Shown: piece by piece, positions 6,779 through 57,885 of the stretch
Numbering within the stretch: the first letter of the stretch is position 1
Layout: the number at the start of each line of letters is the position of its first letter
Program-made: the position numbers and the translations under genes
Origin: Acetobacteraceae bacterium
GTDB lineage: Bacteria; Pseudomonadota; Alphaproteobacteria; Acetobacterales; Acetobacteraceae
DNA: 64,000 nt
NCBI GenBank assembly: GCA_025354865.1
Contig: JANXMB010000047.1
Location: 1-64,000, forward strand
Direction: 5' to 3'
The notes under the pieces: generated by a model
What the model was told of the DNA's origin: nothing
Databases searched by the model: none
What the model saw: the letters and a program-made list of their open reading frames with translations, nothing else

Positions 6779-7804
6779 ATGAGCGATGATCCACCGAAAG
6801 ACCGTCCCAACCAGGGACGACGCCGGAGCAGCAAGAACCAGGACTGGGAAATCCCCCCGGCCCTGCGCCCGAATCCAGGCGATTACGCGTTCGACCTCGA
6901 ACATGCGCTGAAATCGGTGGTCGGTTTGAAGACCTACGTCCCCGCCGACGCCTTCACCGCGAATACTCTGGGCACCGAACGGGCGGGTAGCGGCGTGTTG
7001 ATCCGGGACACCGGGTTGATTGCCACGATCGGCTATTTGATTACCGAGGCCGAAACCATCTGGATTACCGGCAACGACGGGCAGGTGGTGCCCGGCCATG
7101 CGCTGGCGATGGACCAGGAAACCGGATTCGGTCTGGTGCAGGCGTTGGGGAAGCTCGATCTACCGCACCTCGAAATCGGGGACTCCGACAGCATTAAGGT
7201 CGGCGATCAGGCGGTGATCGCGGCGGGCGGTGGGCGTCACCATGCGGTGGAAACGCGGCTGGTCGGGCGGCAGGAATTCGCCGGCTATTGGGAATATGCG
7301 CTCGACGACGCGCTGTTCATCGCGCCCGCGCACCCGTTCTGGGGCGGCTGCGGCTTGATCGGCACCGACGGCAAGCTGATGGGCATCGGCTCGTTGATCC
7401 TGCAACAGGGCGATCAACGCGGTCGCCGGCTGGACATGAACATGGTTGTGCCGATCGGCATGCTGTCCCCCATCCTGTCCGATCTGTTGACCTACGGGCG
7501 GGTCAATCGCCCTGCGCGCCCCTGGCTGGGCATGTACGCGACCGAATCGGGCGACTCCATCGTCGTCGGCGGCATCGCCGATAACGGTCCGGCCGAGCAG
7601 GCGGGTTTGCGCCCAGGCGATAAGATCCTGACCGTCAACGATGAAGAAATTCCCGATCTCGTCGGCCTCTGGCGCCGGGTGTGGTCGTCGGGCAGTGCCG
7701 GGGCCGAGGTTCGGTTGCGGGTCGAGCGCGATGGCAATTCGCTGCGGGTCAGTATGCGGTCTTCCGATCGCGCCAGTTTCCTGAAATCCCCCCGCCTGCA
7801 CTGA
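6779..7804 (+). CDS. HtrA/DegP-like S1C protein with PDZ domain, catalytic triad lost
   Basis: 341 residues from ATG 6779. A trypsin-like half (residues about 40-235) and one PDZ domain (about 250-335, PARPWLGMYA and GPAEQAGLRPGDKILTVND) give the HtrA layout. Active enzymes have TNAHVV, TDLA and GNSGGP around the triad. Here the matching places read TIGYLIT (83-89), TGFGL (115-119) and PFWGGCGL (186-193), so His, Asp and Ser are all absent. No signal peptide or membrane segment is seen; the N-terminus is polar (MSDDPPKDRPNQGRRRSS), suggesting a cytoplasmic protein. It is probably a non-catalytic scaffold or peptide-binding protein. The reading frame is intact and codon use is normal, so this looks like a maintained pseudo-protease rather than decay. 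Confidence 0.8.
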   Translation: MSDDPPKDRPNQGRRRSSKNQDWEIPPALRPNPGDYAFDLEHALKSVVGLKTYVPADAFTANTLGTERAGSGVLIRDTGLIATIGYLITEAETIWITGNDGQVVPGHALAMDQETGFGLVQALGKLDLPHLEIGDSDSIKVGDQAVIAAGGGRHHAVETRLVGRQEFAGYWEYALDDALFIAPAHPFWGGCGLIGTDGKLMGIGSLILQQGDQRGRRLDMNMVVPIGMLSPILSDLLTYGRVNRPARPWLGMYATESGDSIVVGGIADNGPAEQAGLRPGDKILTVNDEEIPDLVGLWRRVWSSGSAGAEVRLRVERDGNSLRVSMRSSDRASFLKSPRLH

Positions 7805-7879
7805 CGCGGCTGGGGGCACGCCCCGGATCGCGCAAACGGCAGATCGAAAAGCGCCGATGAAGACGAAAGGTCGTGGTCG

Positions 7880-8515
7880 ATGGGCCAATTGCGGGGCGCG
7901 ATCGTGCCGGTCACTCCATTCCAGCAGAATTGCGCCATTCTGTGGGACGACGAAGCCATGCGGGCGATCGTGGTCGATCCCGGCGGCGATGTGGACCGCA
8001 TCCTGGCCGCCATCGAACAATGCAAGGTCGGGGTGGACCGCATTCTGCTGACGCACGGGCACCTCGATCATGCCGGCGGCGCCGCCGGTCTGGCCGAGGC
8101 GCTGCAAGTGCCGATCGAAGGGCCGGATATCCGCGATAAATTCCTTCTGGACGGGATCGCCGCGCAAGCCGCCGGCTACGGGTTCGATGCACGCAACTGC
8201 ACCCCCGACCGTTGGCTGACGGAGGGGGAGACGGTGACAATCGGCACCCATCGTTTCGACATCCTGCATTGTCCCGGCCACACACCCGGCCATCTGGTCT
8301 TCGTGAACCACGCCGCCAAACTCCTGCTGGCGGGCGACGTGCTGTTCCAGGGTTCGGTCGGGCGCACCGATTTTCCCTACGGCGATACGGCGGCGCTGAT
8401 CGACGCGATCAAGACCAAGCTGTTGCCGTTGGGCGACGATTTCGAATTCCTCTGCGGCCACGGCCCGGGATCGAGCATTGGCGCCGAGCGCGTCGGGAAC
8501 CCGTTTTTACGGTGA
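7880..8515 (+). CDS. MBL-fold metallo-hydrolase (glyoxalase II-like)
   Basis: A 211-residue single-domain metallo-beta-lactamase-fold protein. The metal-binding motif THGHLDHAGG is near residue 58, with further ligands in HCPGHTPGHLVF (His, near 133), LLAGDVLFQGSVGRTD (Asp) and CGHGPGSSIG at the C-terminus. This set is typical of YcbL-type glyoxalase II and persulfide dioxygenase-like enzymes, which hydrolyse thioesters such as S-lactoylglutathione. The N-terminal FQQNCAILWDD is typical of the YcbL subgroup. It overlaps the following DNA methyltransferase by 4 nt (GTGA, 8512-8515), so the two genes are probably translationally coupled, though their functions are not obviously related. Confidence 0.9.
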   Translation: MGQLRGAIVPVTPFQQNCAILWDDEAMRAIVVDPGGDVDRILAAIEQCKVGVDRILLTHGHLDHAGGAAGLAEALQVPIEGPDIRDKFLLDGIAAQAAGYGFDARNCTPDRWLTEGETVTIGTHRFDILHCPGHTPGHLVFVNHAAKLLLAGDVLFQGSVGRTDFPYGDTAALIDAIKTKLLPLGDDFEFLCGHGPGSSIGAERVGNPFLR

Positions 8516-9717
8516 GACCGATCGTCCGGGAGGATGGCCGAGCAGAGGCGTTCCTGGACGGCTTGCGCCAGTTCGCCGGGTTCGGGGCGGCGACGGTCGA
8601 ATTCGACGACGGCGGCCTGCGCTATTTCGTCAATGAATACTGGACATCCGCGCAACGCCGCAGCCACAGCCTGCACGAGGTCAGCTATCGCGCCTGCTTC
8701 AAAGCCCAGCTCCCGGAATTTTTCATCCAGCGCCTGACCGATGGCGGCGACACCGTCTACGACCCGTTTTCCGGCCGAGGCACCACCGCGTTGCAGGCCG
8801 CGCTGATGGGCCGACGCCCGGCAGCGAACGATATCAATCCCTTGAGCGCGATGCTGGTGGCGCCTCGGTTCGCCCCGCCGGAGGTCGCGGCCGTGCGCGA
8901 GCGGCTGGGCGCGATTCCGCCCGTGGATGCGCCCTTCGCCGACGAGCCCGATCTATCGGTTTTCTATCACCCCGAGACGTTACGCCGGCTTCGCGGGCTG
9001 CGGGCCTGGTTGCTGGATCGAGCGCCGGACCCGGTGGATGCCTGGATCCGCATGGTGGCGCTGAATCGGCTGACCGGGCACTCGCCGGGGTTCTTCTCCG
9101 TTTACACCCTGCCGCCCAATCAAGCGGCGTCAGTGGCGTCGCAGCGGCGGATCAACGCGACCCGCAATCAGGTGCCGCCGCCGCGCGACACCGCCGGCAT
9201 CATCCTGAAAAAGACCCGTTCCTTGCTGGCCGACGGCCACCCGCCGCCGCATCCGCAAGCCATGCTGACGACCGGGGTTGCCTGGGCGACGCCAGGCCTG
9301 ACCGACGCGTCGGTGGATTTGCTCGTCACCTCCCCGCCGTTTTTGGACATCGTGGATTACGAGGGCGACAACTGGCTCCGCTGTTGGTTCGCCGGCATCG
9401 ACCCCGCCACCGTCCCCATTGCGCGTCATGCCACAATCCCAGCCTGGGAGCGGTTCGTCCGATCCTGCTTCCAGGAATTCGCCCGCATCGTCCGCCCCGG
9501 CGGTTACGTCGCGTTCGAAGTGGGGGAGGTCCGTGGCGGCAAAGTGCTGCTGGAACGCAACGTCGCCGCAGCGGTCGAGGGGCTGCCGTTCCACATACTG
9601 GGCACGATGGTCAACCAGCAGGCGTTCACCAAGACCGCGAATTGCTGGGGCGTGGGCAATAACGCCAAGGGCACAAACACCAACCGGATCGTGCTGATGC
9701 AGCGGGTTGGGGGGTAA
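8512..9717 (+). CDS. Orphan site-specific DNA methyltransferase (N4-cytosine/N6-adenine type)
   Basis: 401 residues from GTG 8512, chosen because it overlaps the upstream TGA as GTGA and gives the full fold. Motif X/I region: SLHEVSYRACFKAQLPEFF, then DPFSGRGTT (84-92, SAM binding), then NDINPLS (acidic residue of motif II/III). The catalytic motif IV is TSPPF (273-277). About 180 residues separate motifs I and IV, leaving room for a target-recognition region between them (X-I-TRD-IV, alpha-like order). The C-terminal part carries RPGGYVAFEVGEVRGGK. No restriction endonuclease or Vsr gene is adjacent, so this is probably an orphan regulatory or epigenetic methylase. The recognition site cannot be read from the sequence. 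Confidence 0.85.
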   Translation: MRPIVREDGRAEAFLDGLRQFAGFGAATVEFDDGGLRYFVNEYWTSAQRRSHSLHEVSYRACFKAQLPEFFIQRLTDGGDTVYDPFSGRGTTALQAALMGRRPAANDINPLSAMLVAPRFAPPEVAAVRERLGAIPPVDAPFADEPDLSVFYHPETLRRLRGLRAWLLDRAPDPVDAWIRMVALNRLTGHSPGFFSVYTLPPNQAASVASQRRINATRNQVPPPRDTAGIILKKTRSLLADGHPPPHPQAMLTTGVAWATPGLTDASVDLLVTSPPFLDIVDYEGDNWLRCWFAGIDPATVPIARHATIPAWERFVRSCFQEFARIVRPGGYVAFEVGEVRGGKVLLERNVAAAVEGLPFHILGTMVNQQAFTKTANCWGVGNNAKGTNTNRIVLMQRVGG

Positions 9718-12013: not shown

Positions 12014-12066
12014 CGCCGAGGCCGGCAGACCGACCGATCCCGCTTTTCAGCAGTCTGCTGGATCGC

Positions 12067-12270
12067 GATGCGTTCGCTCTCGCTCACGTATCGCGATCTA
12101 GCCTATTGTTTGTTCGCGCGATTCAGACCTTCGGTGATTCCACCTTCGGTCATCGCGCTCTAGAGCACGATGCGTTCGCTCTCGCTCACGTCTCGCGCTC
12201 TAGCCTATTGTTTGTTCGCGCGATTCAGACCTTCGGTGATTCCACCTTCGGTCATCGCGCTCTAGACCAT
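12067..12270. repeat. Two tandem copies of a 102-bp dispersed repeat
   Basis: Copy 1 is 12067-12168 and copy 2 is 12169-12270, each starting GATGCGTTCGCTCTCGCTCA and ending near CATCGCGCTCTAGA. They differ at a few positions only (for example GTATCGCGATCTAG versus GTCTCGCGCTCTAG, and the last six bases). Diverged copies lie at 33649-33740 (opposite orientation) and 55997-56100. No open frame of interest crosses them. Confidence 0.9.
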
Positions 12271-33648: not shown

Positions 33649-33740
33649 TTAGAGCGCGATGACCGGAGGTCCGGATCGCGCGACCAAACAGAGAATGAGA
33701 TTGCGAGATGGGAACGAGAGCGAAGCCATCGTGCGCTAGA
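33649..33740 (-). repeat. Dispersed repeat copy inside the exopolysaccharide operon
   Basis: Read on the minus strand, 33740 to 33649 runs TCTAGCGCACGATGGCTTCG ... GGTCATCGCGCTCTAA and aligns along its length with the 102-bp units at 12067-12270, with substitutions and small deletions (about 92 nt here). Its first CTAG provides the TAG stop codon of the export lipoprotein gene (33736-33738), and its other end stops 15 nt before the chain-length gene. It may act as an intercistronic mRNA structure between the first two genes of the operon. Confidence 0.8.
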
Positions 33741-52731: not shown

Positions 52732-53418
52732 ATGGACGGTGTTAAAGTTTGCATGTTCGACCAGTACGGTACGCTGGTCGATATGCAGGGCGGCTTGATC
52801 GCGGTCGCGACGCCCTACCTTGCGTCGAAGGGCTGGAAGGGCGACCCGAACCAGTTCGTCACCTGGTGGCGCCGCACCCACTACGAAAACTCCATGATCG
52901 ACGCCCTGCTCGGCCGCCAGCACATCCCGTATCGGGAGATCGGGCATCTGTCCGTCACCCAGGTGCTAAACCGAGCGGGGATCGTGCACACGCGGGCGGA
53001 GGTCGAAGCGTTGGTGGAATCGATCGTCCGCCTAAAACCCTTCCCGGAAATCCCCGCCGCGCTGGACCGGTTGCGCACGCGCTTCAAAATCGCGGTCCTG
53101 TCCAACGGCGACCCCGACATGCTGGAAGCCGCCAAGGCGCATCACGGGCTGCACTACGACGCCACGATTTCCGTCGCCGAGGCCAACGCCTTCAAGCCGC
53201 ATGTCGCGACATACACCAAGGCGGCCGAAATCCTCGGTCTGCGCATGGATGAAATCCTGTTCGTCGCCAACCACGAATTCGACTGCGTCGGCGCCAAAGC
53301 CGCAGGCATGCGCACCGCCTTCATCGACCGGCGCCAGCGGCCGTTCGCGGCATGGCCGTATCAGCCGGACACGATCGTGCGGGACATGACGGCGCTGGCG
53401 GATTTGTTGGTGGGGTAA
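52732..53418 (+). CDS. HAD-family hydrolase, type II haloacid dehalogenase-like
   Basis: 228 residues from ATG 52732. HAD motif I FDQYGTLVD (Asp10 nucleophile), motif II LSNGDPDML, motif III with Lys in AFKPHVATYTKA, and motif IV FVANHEFDCVGAKAAGM. The helical cap (residues 15-100) and the ANHEFD pattern match (S)-2-haloacid dehalogenases, which hydrolyse 2-haloalkanoic acids to 2-hydroxyacids via an aspartyl ester. Annotations of this group often turn out to be phosphatases, so activity on haloacids is unproven. It starts 7 nt after korB, possibly in the same operon. The following 90 nt contain nothing recognisable. Confidence 0.85.
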   Translation: MDGVKVCMFDQYGTLVDMQGGLIAVATPYLASKGWKGDPNQFVTWWRRTHYENSMIDALLGRQHIPYREIGHLSVTQVLNRAGIVHTRAEVEALVESIVRLKPFPEIPAALDRLRTRFKIAVLSNGDPDMLEAAKAHHGLHYDATISVAEANAFKPHVATYTKAAEILGLRMDEILFVANHEFDCVGAKAAGMRTAFIDRRQRPFAAWPYQPDTIVRDMTALADLLVG

Positions 53419-53509
53419 GGCGCCCGGGGGTTCGGTCTACTCGGACTTATGCTAATATCTCCCGATACCGCTAAGACACCATGTCTCTGCCGGGAATGGA
53501 TACGCTGGC

Positions 53510-54886
53510 ATGGCGCTCATGAAGGAACAACTCGAATTTTTGAAGGCGATGCACGGCAAGCTCAAGGACGAGCCGCTGTTGCCCGACGACCCCATGCGCG
53601 TGCAACTGCGTGAAGAACTAAGCGATGCCGACCCGGTCCAACTCATGGCCACCGAAATCTATTTCAGTGGCGACCGCAGCACGCAGTTCTTTTCCGGTTT
53701 CAGCGGTTCGGGCAAGACCACCGAGCTATTCCGTTTACGACGCAATCTAGAGGCGGATGGCGCGCTCGTGCTGTATGCCGACGCGATGCTCTATCTCAAT
53801 CAAGCCGAGCCGCTTGTACTGTCCGAGATGCTGATGGTGCTGGCTGGCGCGTTCAGCGATGCCATTGAGGATCACCCCGATCTCGGTGATCAGGTCGCGG
53901 CCGAGAGCTATTGGGATAGCGTGTGCAATTTTGTGAACGAGACGAACGTAAGACTTACCGGTGTCGATGCCGATGTGGGATGGGTTAGCCCAGGCCGGGC
54001 GGTGGCGGGTGGCTTGAAAGCCGGGGTGCGGATCAAGACGGAGATCAAAACAGCCACGACATTCAAACAAGACCTTGCGAAATTTCTGTCCGGCCATATC
54101 TCGGCATTGAAGGCCGATGTCGACAAATTCATTACCGATGCTGTCGAGGCCATCCGCCACAAGATCGGCGCCGACCGAAACATCGTCTTCATCTTCGACT
54201 CCCTGGAAAAAATCACCGGCACCCCGTCTGGCTGGAATGCGCTGATCCGTAGCGCGGAACTGCTGTTCACCGCCCATCGCGATCAATTGGAATTGCCCGG
54301 CGTCCACGCGATCTACTCCGTCCCCGCATGGATGAAGTTCCTGGCGCCAGCTTCGATGAACATGCGCATCCTGCCCACCGTGCATCTGTGGGTCTACGAT
54401 CCGGACCGGATCGACGACCAAAAATCCTGGGACATGCTTCGAACTCTGATCGACAAACGCCTCGGCCCCGATGGGGAGGCGCGCCTGTTCCACTCCGGGG
54501 AGACCGGGCAGCGCATGATACGCGACCTGATACGGGCATCCGGCGGGCACATCCGGGATTTGCTGCGGCTGTTCCAGGAAACGCTCCTCCGAGCGACGAC
54601 ATTGCCGATCCAGGAAACGGCAGTGCGAGGTGCCATTAACGCGACCAAGCGCAACCTACTGCCATTGTCGCTGGAGGACGCGGTTTGGCTGCGCGACATC
54701 GCCCGAACGCGCGACATCTCATTTGCCGAAGTAAACGACCGCACGATCGAACGCGCCAGCCGTTTCCTGAATACGCATCGGGTCATCTATTTTACCAACG
54801 GCTCCGACTGGTACGACATCCATCCGTTGTTGCGCGATGAAATCGCTCGGGTCATCGACGCGTCTGCCCCCGATAAACCGGCCTGA
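53510..54886 (+). CDS. P-loop NTPase of an NTPase/TPR two-gene cassette
   Basis: 458 residues. Walker A FSGSGKTTE (residues 65-71 region), preceded by YFSGDRSTQFFSG, and Walker B NIVFIFDSLEKI near residue 224. The C-terminal part contains RMIRDLIRASGGHIRDLLRLFQ, a sensor-type helical segment, and a winged-helix-like end (SFAEVNDRTIERASRFLNTHRVIYF, DIHPLLRDEIARVI). I do not recognise a named family; it is closest in style to STAND/AAA-type signalling ATPases used as switches. It is followed after 1 nt by the TPR protein, so the two are surely co-translated. No signal peptide or membrane segment is seen. Base composition looks slightly less GC-rich than that of neighbours. Confidence 0.8.
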   Translation: MALMKEQLEFLKAMHGKLKDEPLLPDDPMRVQLREELSDADPVQLMATEIYFSGDRSTQFFSGFSGSGKTTELFRLRRNLEADGALVLYADAMLYLNQAEPLVLSEMLMVLAGAFSDAIEDHPDLGDQVAAESYWDSVCNFVNETNVRLTGVDADVGWVSPGRAVAGGLKAGVRIKTEIKTATTFKQDLAKFLSGHISALKADVDKFITDAVEAIRHKIGADRNIVFIFDSLEKITGTPSGWNALIRSAELLFTAHRDQLELPGVHAIYSVPAWMKFLAPASMNMRILPTVHLWVYDPDRIDDQKSWDMLRTLIDKRLGPDGEARLFHSGETGQRMIRDLIRASGGHIRDLLRLFQETLLRATTLPIQETAVRGAINATKRNLLPLSLEDAVWLRDIARTRDISFAEVNDRTIERASRFLNTHRVIYFTNGSDWYDIHPLLRDEIARVIDASAPDKPA

Positions 54887-54887
54887 C

Positions 54888-56000
54888 ATGGATACACCGG
54901 GCCTGTCGCCGGATTGGAATCCGATCGTCGCACGGTTCGGCGTTGCGGCGGGACAGGAATGGCAGACATTCCTCAATCGGTTCATTCTCGGTACGGGCTT
55001 CGCGTTGCTGTCCTTGTCGGTACCGGAACCCGCTGTCGCCGCCCTCTGCCGTAACGAACTAGACCGGTTCCTTCGGGCACGCGGCGAGCATCTGAAGATC
55101 GTATCGATTTCAGAGCCAAACGACCTCCGTTCTCTGGTGTTGCAATTATTGGCGTTCCCGACCGAGGATGGGATCGGTGCCCTGTGGATCGAAGCTGTGG
55201 TTGGGCTGGACGCACCGGGCTATCCCGAATGGCACGCCGCGTGGTTCGTCGCCTTGACCGAACTGAACCAACATCGCAATCCGATCCGCCGTCATTTTTC
55301 TTACCCGCTGGTGTTGGTCGGTGCGCCGTGGGTCAGCACGACGATGCGCGACGAAGCCCCGGATTTGTGGTCGATCCGATCGCTGGCGATTCAGTTGGAG
55401 CCAGACTTTTCTGCCGGTGCGATCGAACAGCGCAAGCTGGAACTGTTGCCGGACGATCCATTGCCGCGCACCCCAATCGACGCGCGGTTGTTCGATCCGG
55501 ATGCCGCGCTCCGAGCGATCGAACGTGCCCGTTCCGCACCTGGACGGGAAGCCAATCTGGTCGCGCTATTAAGCCGCGCCGGCAGAGGTTTCGCCGCCAC
55601 CGGGCAGTGGGTGCAAGCGGAGGCGTTGACGCAAGAGGCTATCGAACTGGCGCACCGGATCGGCGATTTAAGGGCGGAGGCTGTCGCGTTGGTCCGACTC
55701 GGCGATATCGCGACGACCGTTGGCCGGGTCGATGCTGCCCTCGCCGCATTCAAGGCGTCGCAGGTTATCTTCGAGCGTCTGGCGGCATCGGACCCTGGCC
55801 ACGCGGGGTGGCAGCGGGATTTGTCGGTTTCGCACATCAAGATCGGCGACGTGCTGTGCACGCGCAACGAACATTCCGATGCCCGGCAGCACTTCCAAAC
55901 GGCGCGGGACATCGTGGCGCAGTTGGTCGAGGCCCATCCGCGGCCCGAATGGCAACGAGATCTGGCCTATATCGACCAAGCGCTCGCGTCGGTGTCCTAG
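54888..56000 (+). CDS. TPR protein partnering the P-loop NTPase
   Basis: 370 residues from ATG 54888, 1 nt after the NTPase stop. Residues 1-190 form an alpha/beta region that lacks an obvious P-loop (FLRARGEHLKIVSISEP, LVLQLLAFPTEDGIGALWIEA, WFVALTELNQHRNPIRRHF, PLVLVGAPW, EAPDLWSIRSLAIQLEP); the LNQHRNPI/APDLWSIRS pattern recurs in proteins coupled to STAND-like ATPases. Residues about 215-370 are TPR repeats (GQWVQAEALTQEAIELAHRIG, GRVDAALAAFKASQVIFERLA, PGHAGWQRDLSVSHIKIGDVL); the last unit type is usually found in long tandem arrays, but here there are only about four. Its stop TAG is the first part of the dispersed repeat at 55997. Confidence 0.75.
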   Translation: MDTPGLSPDWNPIVARFGVAAGQEWQTFLNRFILGTGFALLSLSVPEPAVAALCRNELDRFLRARGEHLKIVSISEPNDLRSLVLQLLAFPTEDGIGALWIEAVVGLDAPGYPEWHAAWFVALTELNQHRNPIRRHFSYPLVLVGAPWVSTTMRDEAPDLWSIRSLAIQLEPDFSAGAIEQRKLELLPDDPLPRTPIDARLFDPDAALRAIERARSAPGREANLVALLSRAGRGFAATGQWVQAEALTQEAIELAHRIGDLRAEAVALVRLGDIATTVGRVDAALAAFKASQVIFERLAASDPGHAGWQRDLSVSHIKIGDVLCTRNEHSDARQHFQTARDIVAQLVEAHPRPEWQRDLAYIDQALASVS

Positions 56001-56100
56001 ACCGCGATGCGTTCGCGTCCTTTCACGCCTCGTGGTTCAGCACTTTGTCCGATCGCGCGATCCAGACCTCTGGTGATTCCACCGGTCGTCATCGCGCTCA
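55997..56100 (+). repeat. Diverged copy of the dispersed repeat at the end of the TPR gene
   Basis: CTAGACCGCGATGCGTTCGC at 55997, followed by CGCGCGATCCAGACCTCTGG and GGTGATTCCACC...CATCGCGCTCA up to 56100, aligns with the 102-bp units at 12067-12270. The opening CTAG provides the TAG stop of the TPR gene (55998-56000). The rest of the gap to 56238 has no recognised feature. Confidence 0.75.
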
Positions 56101-56238
56101 AGCCACCCGGCTCGGCGTGTCGCAGGTGACGATCGTGGTGCCCGCATCGGACTCGGCCGAACGGACGCCTTACCAGTATCGTTGGCGCGCGCACCGCCGC
56201 ACGCTACAATCGCGTGCTACATCCGGAACCCCGTTCTC

Positions 56239-56481
56239 ATGAACGCCCCCGTCTCCATCCGCCTCAACGACGACGTACGCCAAACCCTCGAAGCCGAGGC
56301 CAAGGCGCGCGGTCTGGGCCTCGCGACCTTGCTGCGGGAAATTGCATCCGCCGCTGCCCGCGACGTCAGGCGGGCACGCATCAAAGCCGAAAGTGCAGCG
56401 GTCGGGCGTTTCGTCGCGGCCGACCCGGAGGCGCGGGCGTTCCTCGATCGCCTCGGACATCCGCCAGTCGAGGGTCTCTGA
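56239..56481 (+). CDS. RHH-type antitoxin of a MazEF/PemIK-like pair
   Basis: 80 residues from ATG 56239 (MNAPVSIRLNDDVRQTLEAE). The N-terminal SIRLNDDVRQTLEAEAKARGLGLATLLREI is a ribbon-helix-helix DNA-binding pattern; the C-terminal tail (RRARIKAESAAVGRFVAADPEARAFL) would wrap the toxin. An ATG in the same frame at 56182 exists but its extra residues look uninformative. The toxin gene starts 4 nt after the stop, the usual order for antitoxin-toxin operons with autoregulation. It lies just outside the NTPase/TPR cassette. Confidence 0.8.
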   Translation: MNAPVSIRLNDDVRQTLEAEAKARGLGLATLLREIASAAARDVRRARIKAESAAVGRFVAADPEARAFLDRLGHPPVEGL

Positions 56482-56485
56482 CCCC

Positions 56486-56839
56486 GTGGCGACATTCGAA
56501 GCCGGGCAGATCGTCATCGCCGATTGGCGTGACGCCATTCCGCGCGAACCCAACAAGCTGCGTCCGGCGATCGTCATCGAGGACACCGGCCTGTTCGACC
56601 CCGCTTACCCCGCCGTCATCCTGGTGCCGTTGTCCGATCGGGCAGATTTTGTGATTCCGAGCCTCGCCGTGCCGATCGAACCGACAGAGGAGAACGGTTG
56701 TGCCAAGCCATGTTGGGCGATCTCCCACTTCGTCGCCACGATGTCCACCGCCCGGGTAACCGGAACCCGGTCGCGGATCACCCAAGCCCAACTGTCGCAA
56801 ATCCGCCGGCAGGTGGCCGAGGCCATCGGCCTAGCCTAA
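56486..56839 (+). CDS. MazF/PemK-like growth-inhibitor toxin
   Basis: 117 residues from GTG 56486 (VATFEAGQIVIADWRDAIP). The PemK/MazF fold is indicated by GQIVIADWRD, then KLRPAIVIEDTGLF (RPxVV motif with the catalytic Arg region), VILVPLSDRAD, and a C-terminal SRITQAQLSQIRRQVAEAIG helix. MazF toxins are sequence-specific endoribonucleases that cleave mRNA or tRNA and are held by the cognate RHH or AbrB-type antitoxin. Relative to typical MazF, the GSEQxKxRP loop reads PREPNKLRP. It is convergent with nothing; the hydroxyacid dehydrogenase gene begins 32 nt downstream on the same strand. Confidence 0.8.
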   Translation: MATFEAGQIVIADWRDAIPREPNKLRPAIVIEDTGLFDPAYPAVILVPLSDRADFVIPSLAVPIEPTEENGCAKPCWAISHFVATMSTARVTGTRSRITQAQLSQIRRQVAEAIGLA

Positions 56840-56871
56840 GATCGGCCAAAACCAAGCCGAGGAAACCCGCC

Positions 56872-57885
56872 ATGACCGTCACCGTCCTCTACACTGATCG
56901 TGTCTACCCCGACGACAGCGTCGAACGCCGCATTTTCGGCCCCGATGTCCGGGTGATCTTCCCGGCCAATCCCACCAACTCCGTCGCCGACCTGTCGGAC
57001 GCGGATTGCGCCGCCGCCGATGGCCTGATGACCCTGCGCCACCGCGTCACCGCCCAGGATTTCGAGCGTTTTCCGAAGCTCCGCGCCGTGTGCCGGATGG
57101 GCGTGGGCTACGACAGCATCGACCGCATCGCTGCCAACGGGCGCCAGATCATGGTGCTCAATGTGCCGGATTACGGCACGACCGAGGTCGCGGACCACGC
57201 CATCGCCCTGACCATGGCACTGCGTCGCGGCCTGTTCATGCATCTGGAGGCACAGCGCGCCGATCCGCCGGCGCCCTGGAAATACATCGACGACCCGCTG
57301 GTGCGGCGGAGCAGCGTGCAGACCTTCGGCATCGTCGGCATGGGCCGCATCGCCACCGCCGTCGCCCTGCGCGCCAAGGCGTTCGGCTTCAAGGTCGTGT
57401 TCTTCGATCCGCTGCTGCCGAACGGGGTGGAACTCGGCCTGGGCATCGGCCGCGCCCCGACGCTGGAGGCACTGTTGGAACAATCCGATGTGCTGTCGGT
57501 GCATGTGCCTCTGACCCCGGACACGCGCAACCTGATCGACGACCGAGCGCTGTCGTTGCTGCCCAAGGGGGCGGTGCTGGTGAACACCGCGCGCGGTCCG
57601 ATCGTCGATATCGACGCCGTGGCGAAACACCTGAAATCCGGCCATCTGGCGGGCGTCGGCCTGGACGTGGTGCCGGTCGAGCCGCCGGTCGAGCCGGTCC
57701 CGGAACTGATCCGCGCCTTCCGCGCCCGCGAACCCTGGACGATCGGCCGGCTGATCATCACCCCGCACTCGGCTTTCTATACGCCGCAAGCGTGGGACGA
57801 TATCCGCTCCAAATCCGCAGAAACGATGCGCGCGGCGCTGCTGGGCCCGAAGCCGCAAAACGTGATCCCGGCGGACTCCTACTAG
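56872..57885 (+). CDS. D-isomer-specific 2-hydroxyacid dehydrogenase (CtBP-like)
   Basis: 337 residues from ATG 56872. The substrate-binding domain (residues 1-110, LMTLRHRVTAQDFERFPKLRAVCRMGVGYDSID) and Rossmann NAD domain (FGIVGMGRIATAVALRAKAFGF) give the family fold. The catalytic triad segments are NTARGPIVDIDAV (Arg), a Glu in LDVVPVEPPVEP, and ITPHSAFYTPQAW (His). The C-terminal PEP/PHSA form is that of the CtBP-type C-terminal-binding/phosphoglycerate-dehydrogenase-like group that reduces or oxidises 2-oxo acids with NAD(P)H. The substrate is unknown. A 10-bp palindrome lies just after the stop, between it and the convergent beta-helix gene. Confidence 0.9.
   Translation: MTVTVLYTDRVYPDDSVERRIFGPDVRVIFPANPTNSVADLSDADCAAADGLMTLRHRVTAQDFERFPKLRAVCRMGVGYDSIDRIAANGRQIMVLNVPDYGTTEVADHAIALTMALRRGLFMHLEAQRADPPAPWKYIDDPLVRRSSVQTFGIVGMGRIATAVALRAKAFGFKVVFFDPLLPNGVELGLGIGRAPTLEALLEQSDVLSVHVPLTPDTRNLIDDRALSLLPKGAVLVNTARGPIVDIDAVAKHLKSGHLAGVGLDVVPVEPPVEPVPELIRAFRAREPWTIGRLIITPHSAFYTPQAWDDIRSKSAETMRAALLGPKPQNVIPADSY

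Follow-up and report, generated by a model that had tools for sequence, protein, structure and literature searches.

An inserted NTPase/partner gene pair of Acetobacteraceae is a candidate split, STAND-like mobile conflict switch

Within a window of 64,000 nucleotides (the whole stretch of DNA analysed, from an Acetobacteraceae draft genome of 4.76 Mb in 190 contigs), we identified a pair of adjacent genes for a P-loop NTPase and a TPR-bearing partner. Since this pair moves between phyla and the C-terminal arm of its partner can be exchanged for immune death domains that are already known, we are probably dealing with an undescribed relative of the bacterial immune receptors that is split over two proteins. 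With moderate confidence, we read it as a two-protein, STAND-like mobile conflict switch, the inactive subunit of which would carry the sensor or effector; a defence role is suggested by these associations. The first-pass annotation of the window had already likened the pair to the STAND-like NTPase/TPR modules of conflict systems, and this likeness has gained support from the folds that resemble the NTPase (ORC/Cdc6, TnsC, CED-4, resistosomes and RdrA) and from the TIR, SIR2 and NACHT-FGE arms found in homologues. No published description of the exact pair was found in the literature searched, which covers few subscription journals.

The features of the locus are collected in Table 1. The 458-residue P-loop NTPase annotated at first was recovered as an open reading frame with both Walker motifs, and the ORF coordinates agree with the 1-nt spacing that had been reported between its stop codon (ending at 54886) and the partner ATG (54888), a gene layout that would indicate co-expression of the two proteins. 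Each gene is present as a single copy within its own draft genome, and the nearest relatives in the public genome scan are uncultured Acetobacteraceae. The slightly lower GC noted earlier was also borne out, as the pair displays 60.4% GC where the window averages 64.8% (rank 2 among 246 equal-sized segments, ~2.1 s.d. low), and its third-position GC (0.72-0.73) is likewise low when compared to the flanking core genes (0.84-0.90).

Table 1. Coordinates of the NTPase/partner pair, its domains and motifs, and its neighbours in the window
Feature	Positions	Strand	Description and basis
HAD dehalogenase-type gene	52732-53418		Upstream flank
3.4-kb insertion	53419-56860	.	Between HAD dehalogenase-type and D-2-hydroxyacid dehydrogenase-type genes; alignment to relatives
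NTPase gene	53510-54886	+	458 aa; ORC/Cdc6-STAND clade; ORF, motifs, AF2 model, fold matches
Walker A, G63-T71 (GFSGSGKTT)	53696-53722	+	K69 kept in 50/50 homologues
Walker B strand, I225-E233 (IVFIFDSLE)	54182-54208	+	D230 in 50/50; E or D at 233 in 50/50
Sensor-2-like motif, residues 345-350 (GGHIRD)	54542-54559	+	R349 in 49/50
Partner gene	54888-56000	+	370 aa; probable decayed P-loop-like domain and TPR array; ORF, AF2 model, conserved pairing
Partner N-terminal domain, residues 1-175	54888-55412	+	Five-stranded alpha/beta core without Walker motifs; conserved N127, R130, D159, R164
TPR array, residues 196-370	55473-55997	+	Pfam TPR; structure matches Z 16-21 over residues 195-370
Dispersed repeat copy	56001-56104	+	Directly 3' of the partner stop; 46 matches in genome; neighbour
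Putative RHH antitoxin	56239-56481	+	Weak RHH/NikA-like matches, E 0.004-0.02, below curated cut-offs; neighbour, not part of the module
PemK/MazF-like toxin gene	56486-56839	+	PF02452, E 3e-15; neighbour in the same insertion, not part of the module
D-2-hydroxyacid dehydrogenase-type gene	56872-57885		Downstream flank

The AF2 model of the NTPase (pLDDT 90.4) displays a P-loop core, a helical lid and a C-terminal winged-helix-like segment, and its best structural neighbours (Z 12-15) are ORC/Cdc6, TnsC, archaeal ATPase_2 proteins, CED-4 and plant resistosomes, with RdrA and BrxC also among the Foldseek matches. The Walker A and B motifs, the P-loop core and the C-terminal helical bundle, as seen in the model and fold matches, place the protein in the ORC/Cdc6-STAND clade of AAA+ proteins; Pfam matches of the homologues are to AAA_16, AAA_22, ATPase_2 and NACHT, and to DAP3 in only 3 of 50 members. 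In addition to the motif residues of Table 1, R317 is invariant across the 50 homologues. No arginine is conserved in these homologues between residues 266 and 292 (strands 4-5), the stretch in which AAA+ proteins carry their arginine finger and STANDs their ToR motif, and strand 4 ends in T/S-V/I-P-P. Because the arginine at the end of strand 4 (hhhhToR) is absent, we do not file the NTPase with the classical STANDs (NACHT, AP-ATPase, SWACOS). Its motifs nevertheless suggest that it would be the active, ATP-binding switch subunit that binds and hydrolyses NTP. A TnsC-like transposition helper was considered given the good fold match and was set aside, as no transposase recurs beside the pair. 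PDB sequence searches with either the NTPase or the partner domain gave nothing significant.

The partner model (pLDDT 88.9) shows five strands (residues 39-44, 68-73, 96-103, 140-145 and 166-169) that alternate with helices in the order b-a-b-a-b-a-b-a-b, followed by a disordered linker (176-197) and the TPRs, which had been proposed from the first reading and match Pfam TPR_12 (E 7.7e-9, residues 227-290). None of the Walker A or B residues is kept in this N-terminal domain, and no Pfam family, BREX models included, covers it. Its conserved positions are R130 (74/74), D159 (72/72) and R164 (62/71), the last of which lies just before the final strand, presumably the usual arginine-finger position of AAA+ proteins. 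Moreover, hhalign aligns the domain to the stretch of the NTPase from Walker B to strand 4 with P values of 0.0009-0.003 and a probability of only 11-23%. It is therefore likely, from the modelled strand-helix order and this profile alignment to the NTPase core, that the domain is of P-loop descent, its Walker motifs having been lost, a reading that replaces the 'non-P-loop' label given to it at first pass. Note that a fold search with the whole partner returned TPR matches only, and since the TPRs filled the list, the missing P-loop matches are uninformative on the N-terminal domain.

Using a three-sequence NTPase profile, we scanned 84,980 species genomes and found 76 NTPase loci in ~7 phyla, which are, by record titles, Pseudomonadota, Acidobacteriota, Verrucomicrobiota, Actinomycetota, Myxococcota, Thermodesulfobacteriota and Cyanobacteriota; as many of these records are metagenome-assembled genomes, single odd taxonomic placements are unsafe. 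One of the loci, L044, comes from a cultured strain of Roseomonas nepalensis. The partner domain follows the NTPase in 72 of the 74 testable loci (L045, which ends too early, and L061, which is masked, were left out), mostly overlapping it or within 200 nt, so that the two-gene pairing seen in the first reading exceeds chance. The two exceptions are L046, in which a remnant of the partner persists, and L051, in which the NTPase is fused at a contig end. In this last locus (Archangium violaceum, 7001-9061), an AAA_15/AAA_21-like ATP-binding domain, fused to the NTPase, stands where a separate partner would be expected. An independent search for the N-terminal domain in 398 genomes of the phylum retrieved it in 8, all of them NTPase-positive; in G321, they come from separate contigs, one of which breaks off within the NTPase. 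In addition, pairwise identities of the NTPases correlate with those of their partners (r 0.93 over 62 loci, 0 of 999 permutations), a correlation that partly reflects shared host history. The NTPase tree mixes phyla, and the cyanobacterial homologues display only 17-25% identity to the NTPase of the window. A phage origin was also considered and rejected, with no relative in IMG/VR contigs and no PHROG match.

The N-terminal domain of the partner thus stays with the NTPase, while its C-terminal arm varies. TPR models match 48 of the 53 partners scanned, and the TPR-only arm is by far the commonest form; no effector is visible in the TPR-only form of the window, nor does a third gene recur with TPR-only loci. 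In L074, a TIR (TIR_2) arm occupies the place of the TPR-arm start seen in the rest of its clade, and its NTPase is the sister (100/100) of that of L064, whose contig ends shortly after the domain. Other partner arms are SIR2_2-NACHT-FGE (L048), SIR2_2-nSTAND5-TPR (L056), NACHT-FGE (L084) and, on cyanobacterial plasmids, an nSTAND-like NTPase with WD40 repeats; on a Calothrix plasmid, the NTPase is followed by another NTPase gene of its type, this one carrying a TIR fusion. GT4 or HEPN arms were found neither in the members read singly nor among the 25 families listed of 142. In L048 (5733-12718), the SIR2-NACHT-FGE arm resembles a separate SIR2 gene that starts 0.55 kb downstream, a likeness that suggests either capture of the arm from this neighbour or a joint duplication of the two. 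The number of repeats is variable as well: four Accumulibacter loci (L058, L062, L063 and L086) have N-terminal domains that are 88-96% identical, yet they carry ~2, 5, at least 7 and 9 repeat units, counts in which an assembly collapse of repeats may play a part.

These arms bear on the possibility that the pair is a STAND-type signalling or transcription switch of the MalT/AfsR kind, in which a winged-helix-like NTPase would control genes and the partner TPRs would read a ligand, with no conflict role. Indeed, the last part of the NTPase model, a helix-helix-strand-strand-helix segment, would fit a winged helix, and TPR_MalT, AfsR and HaaT models weakly match the partner TPRs. We nevertheless consider such a switch unlikely, since the TIR, SIR2 and NACHT-FGE arms at the same position are of effector rather than regulator type, and since no neighbouring target gene recurs.

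The window pair itself appears as a guest of its site when compared with genomes of the same genus, in which the alignment of the flanks stops at 53403-53415 and resumes at ~56861. The stretch in between holds the pair together with the PemK-type toxin gene and its putative RHH antitoxin. The two flanking genes are only ~27 bp apart in G662, 30 bp in G661 and 162 bp in G659, and these near-empty sites support the lateral acquisition of the pair as a mini-island, as had been proposed. In G062, of the same genus, the flanking genes are 697 bp apart and hold a different insert (~0.7 kb), a 191-aa gene on the other strand that is Uma2-like by eye (L178, contig C64, 63500-67500). The presence of a different single gene there hints at a possible small hotspot of insertion between the HAD and dehydrogenase genes. 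The G062 copy of the pair (51% identity) lies elsewhere, downstream of the slt and pgpA genes, as do those of two more Acetobacteraceae records. A distant second copy of NTPase and partner (28% identity) occurs in G062 as well (contig C16, 73701-75002; L003 and L010), its partner having a similar alpha/beta domain and TPRs. Over the whole order, a match was found in only 1 of 250 genomes besides the genome of the window. Empty sites within the genus, low GC, copies elsewhere and patchy occurrence in the order together indicate that the pair moves.

The first-pass annotation had described an RHH/MazF-like toxin-antitoxin pair as bordering this cassette. The toxin half stands, with a PF02452 match (E 3e-15) of PemK type, while the antitoxin half relies on RHH matches below the curated cut-offs. 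As no such family recurs beside the homologues, we rejected the toxin-antitoxin pair as a part of the module.

More generally, no third gene recurs beside the pair across lineages, the recurring ones being lineage-specific housekeeping genes only. The pair is usually co-directional with the preceding gene. In several Burkholderiales and in Tepidiphilus, hom and thrC enclose it; in Methylococcaceae it follows greA, in Acetobacteraceae it follows pgpA, and in G286 it lies between lipA and lipB (gene names assigned by eye from sequence). The location between the homoserine dehydrogenase and threonine synthase genes (L067, L068, L078, L080, L082 and L088) spans several distinct tree branches, and this placement could reflect either a recurrent target or old vertical inheritance. 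Many loci are in housekeeping operons and not in defence islands; in L043, however, a gene for a type IIG restriction enzyme already begins before the partner stop, and L048 has a further SIR2 gene of like kind beside the pair. Consistent co-occurrence with a housekeeping operon, which the first-pass annotation had regarded as speaking against a conflict role, was thus observed in part, namely with hom/thrC in several Burkholderiales, but the operons are unrelated in other lineages.

Given the co-directional and tight spacing within these operons (hom/thrC, greA, lipA/lipB and pgpA, by eye), the pair could instead be a housekeeping helper, an assembly or metabolic ATPase tied to its host operons; this is improbable, as the operon varies between lineages and as neither the empty sites within the genus nor the scarcity of the pair in the order would be expected of such a helper. 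It is just as improbable that the two proteins form a selfish addiction module, a large toxin-antitoxin-like pair in which arm swaps only change the poison, since the commonest arm is TPR only, toxin and antitoxin roles are not evident from the genes and L046 has lost the partner rather than the NTPase, even if two overlapping co-mobile genes, a patchy distribution, effector-type arms and the co-inserted PemK pair would suit it.

Among known systems, bacterial NLR-type STAND proteins (NACHT and Avs proteins, SIR2- or TIR-headed) carry all their parts in one chain. They share with our pair an NTPase switch, a repeat sensor and TIR- or SIR2-type effectors, whereas here the switch and the sensor/effector are separate genes, and the second has a domain of no Pfam family. 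The closest published plan, likened from its description, would be the nSTAND2 two-gene operon, a mobile unit in which both proteins have a STAND-type core, the catalytically eroded one carrying variable effector modules, and for which an arginine finger working between the subunits of a heteromer has been proposed (PMC8195603, Fig. 6C). Two genes and a variable arm are common to both, the eroded core depending on our reading of the partner N-terminal domain. In contrast, the published arms are mostly GT4 or HEPN while ours are TPR, WD40, TIR and SIR2-NACHT-FGE, and the published kinship is with CR-ATPases/DAP3 while ORC/Cdc6-like matches lead here; no nSTAND2 model was among the Pfam hits. 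In the iSTAND/iSTAND2 ternary systems, an inactive STAND module is the proposed sensor and the partners are MoxR and vWA proteins (PMC7159879, PMC8195603). TPR, TIR and FGS domains are common to both, as would be an inactive STAND module as proposed sensor on the same reading of the partner domain, but no adjacent MoxR/vWA recurs here and the active protein is a single ORC/STAND-type NTPase. Finally, BREX combines an ORC-clade ATPase, BrxC, with an inactive STAND protein, BrxB (PMC12839542), which resembles our ORC-type ATPase with its putative inactive-STAND-like partner, BrxC being among the NTPase fold matches, but no PglZ, methylase or BrxL lies beside the pair. PADLOC gave no system-model match for either window protein, with generic TPR matches and a chance-level PifA only.

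Read as a split conflict switch, the pair may work as follows. The NTPase would act as the ATP-binding switch, while the dead P-loop-like domain of the partner would dock on it and may supply the arginine finger that the switch is without, completing the active site with R164 or R130; the complementary conservation of the two proteins argues for this step, which we propose tentatively. The fast-changing TPR array would then sense a ligand or recruit an effector, and a TIR, SIR2 or NACHT-FGE arm takes its place in relatives. For the class as a whole, these arms make it fairly probable that invaded cells kill themselves or stop growing, an abortive-infection-type defence. A wider hypothesis, which we regard as rather doubtful, is that such pairs are widespread, undescribed split NLR-like receptors in which the arginine finger given in trans by the dead subunit lets ligand binding by the exchangeable arm directly gate ATP hydrolysis by the other protein, and which spread by co-directional insertion into housekeeping operons instead of defence islands.

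If the split-switch reading is right, a two-protein architecture would be added to the bacterial immune receptors of ~7 phyla, and current defence catalogues would miss it, since there is no family model for the partner domain and most loci are outside defence islands. As the subunits are separate, the long-standing question of how NLR-type switches couple sensing by a repeat domain to the hydrolysis of nucleotides would become directly testable, with ready-made comparisons in the near-identical Accumulibacter orthologues (~2 to 9 TPR units) and in the sister NTPases with TPR-type and TIR arms.

Lastly, the dispersed repeat that had been described at the border of the cassette was found there, one copy directly following the partner stop. 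This non-coding element of ~100 bp has 46 matches in its own genome (74-90% identity). A search for RNA elements returned only a tRNA, far away. The repeat is predicted to fold into two stem-loops, and its copies are sometimes neighbouring, as in the window, where an adjoining pair (12064-12163 and 12168-12265) and a partial copy (33659-33731) were also found.
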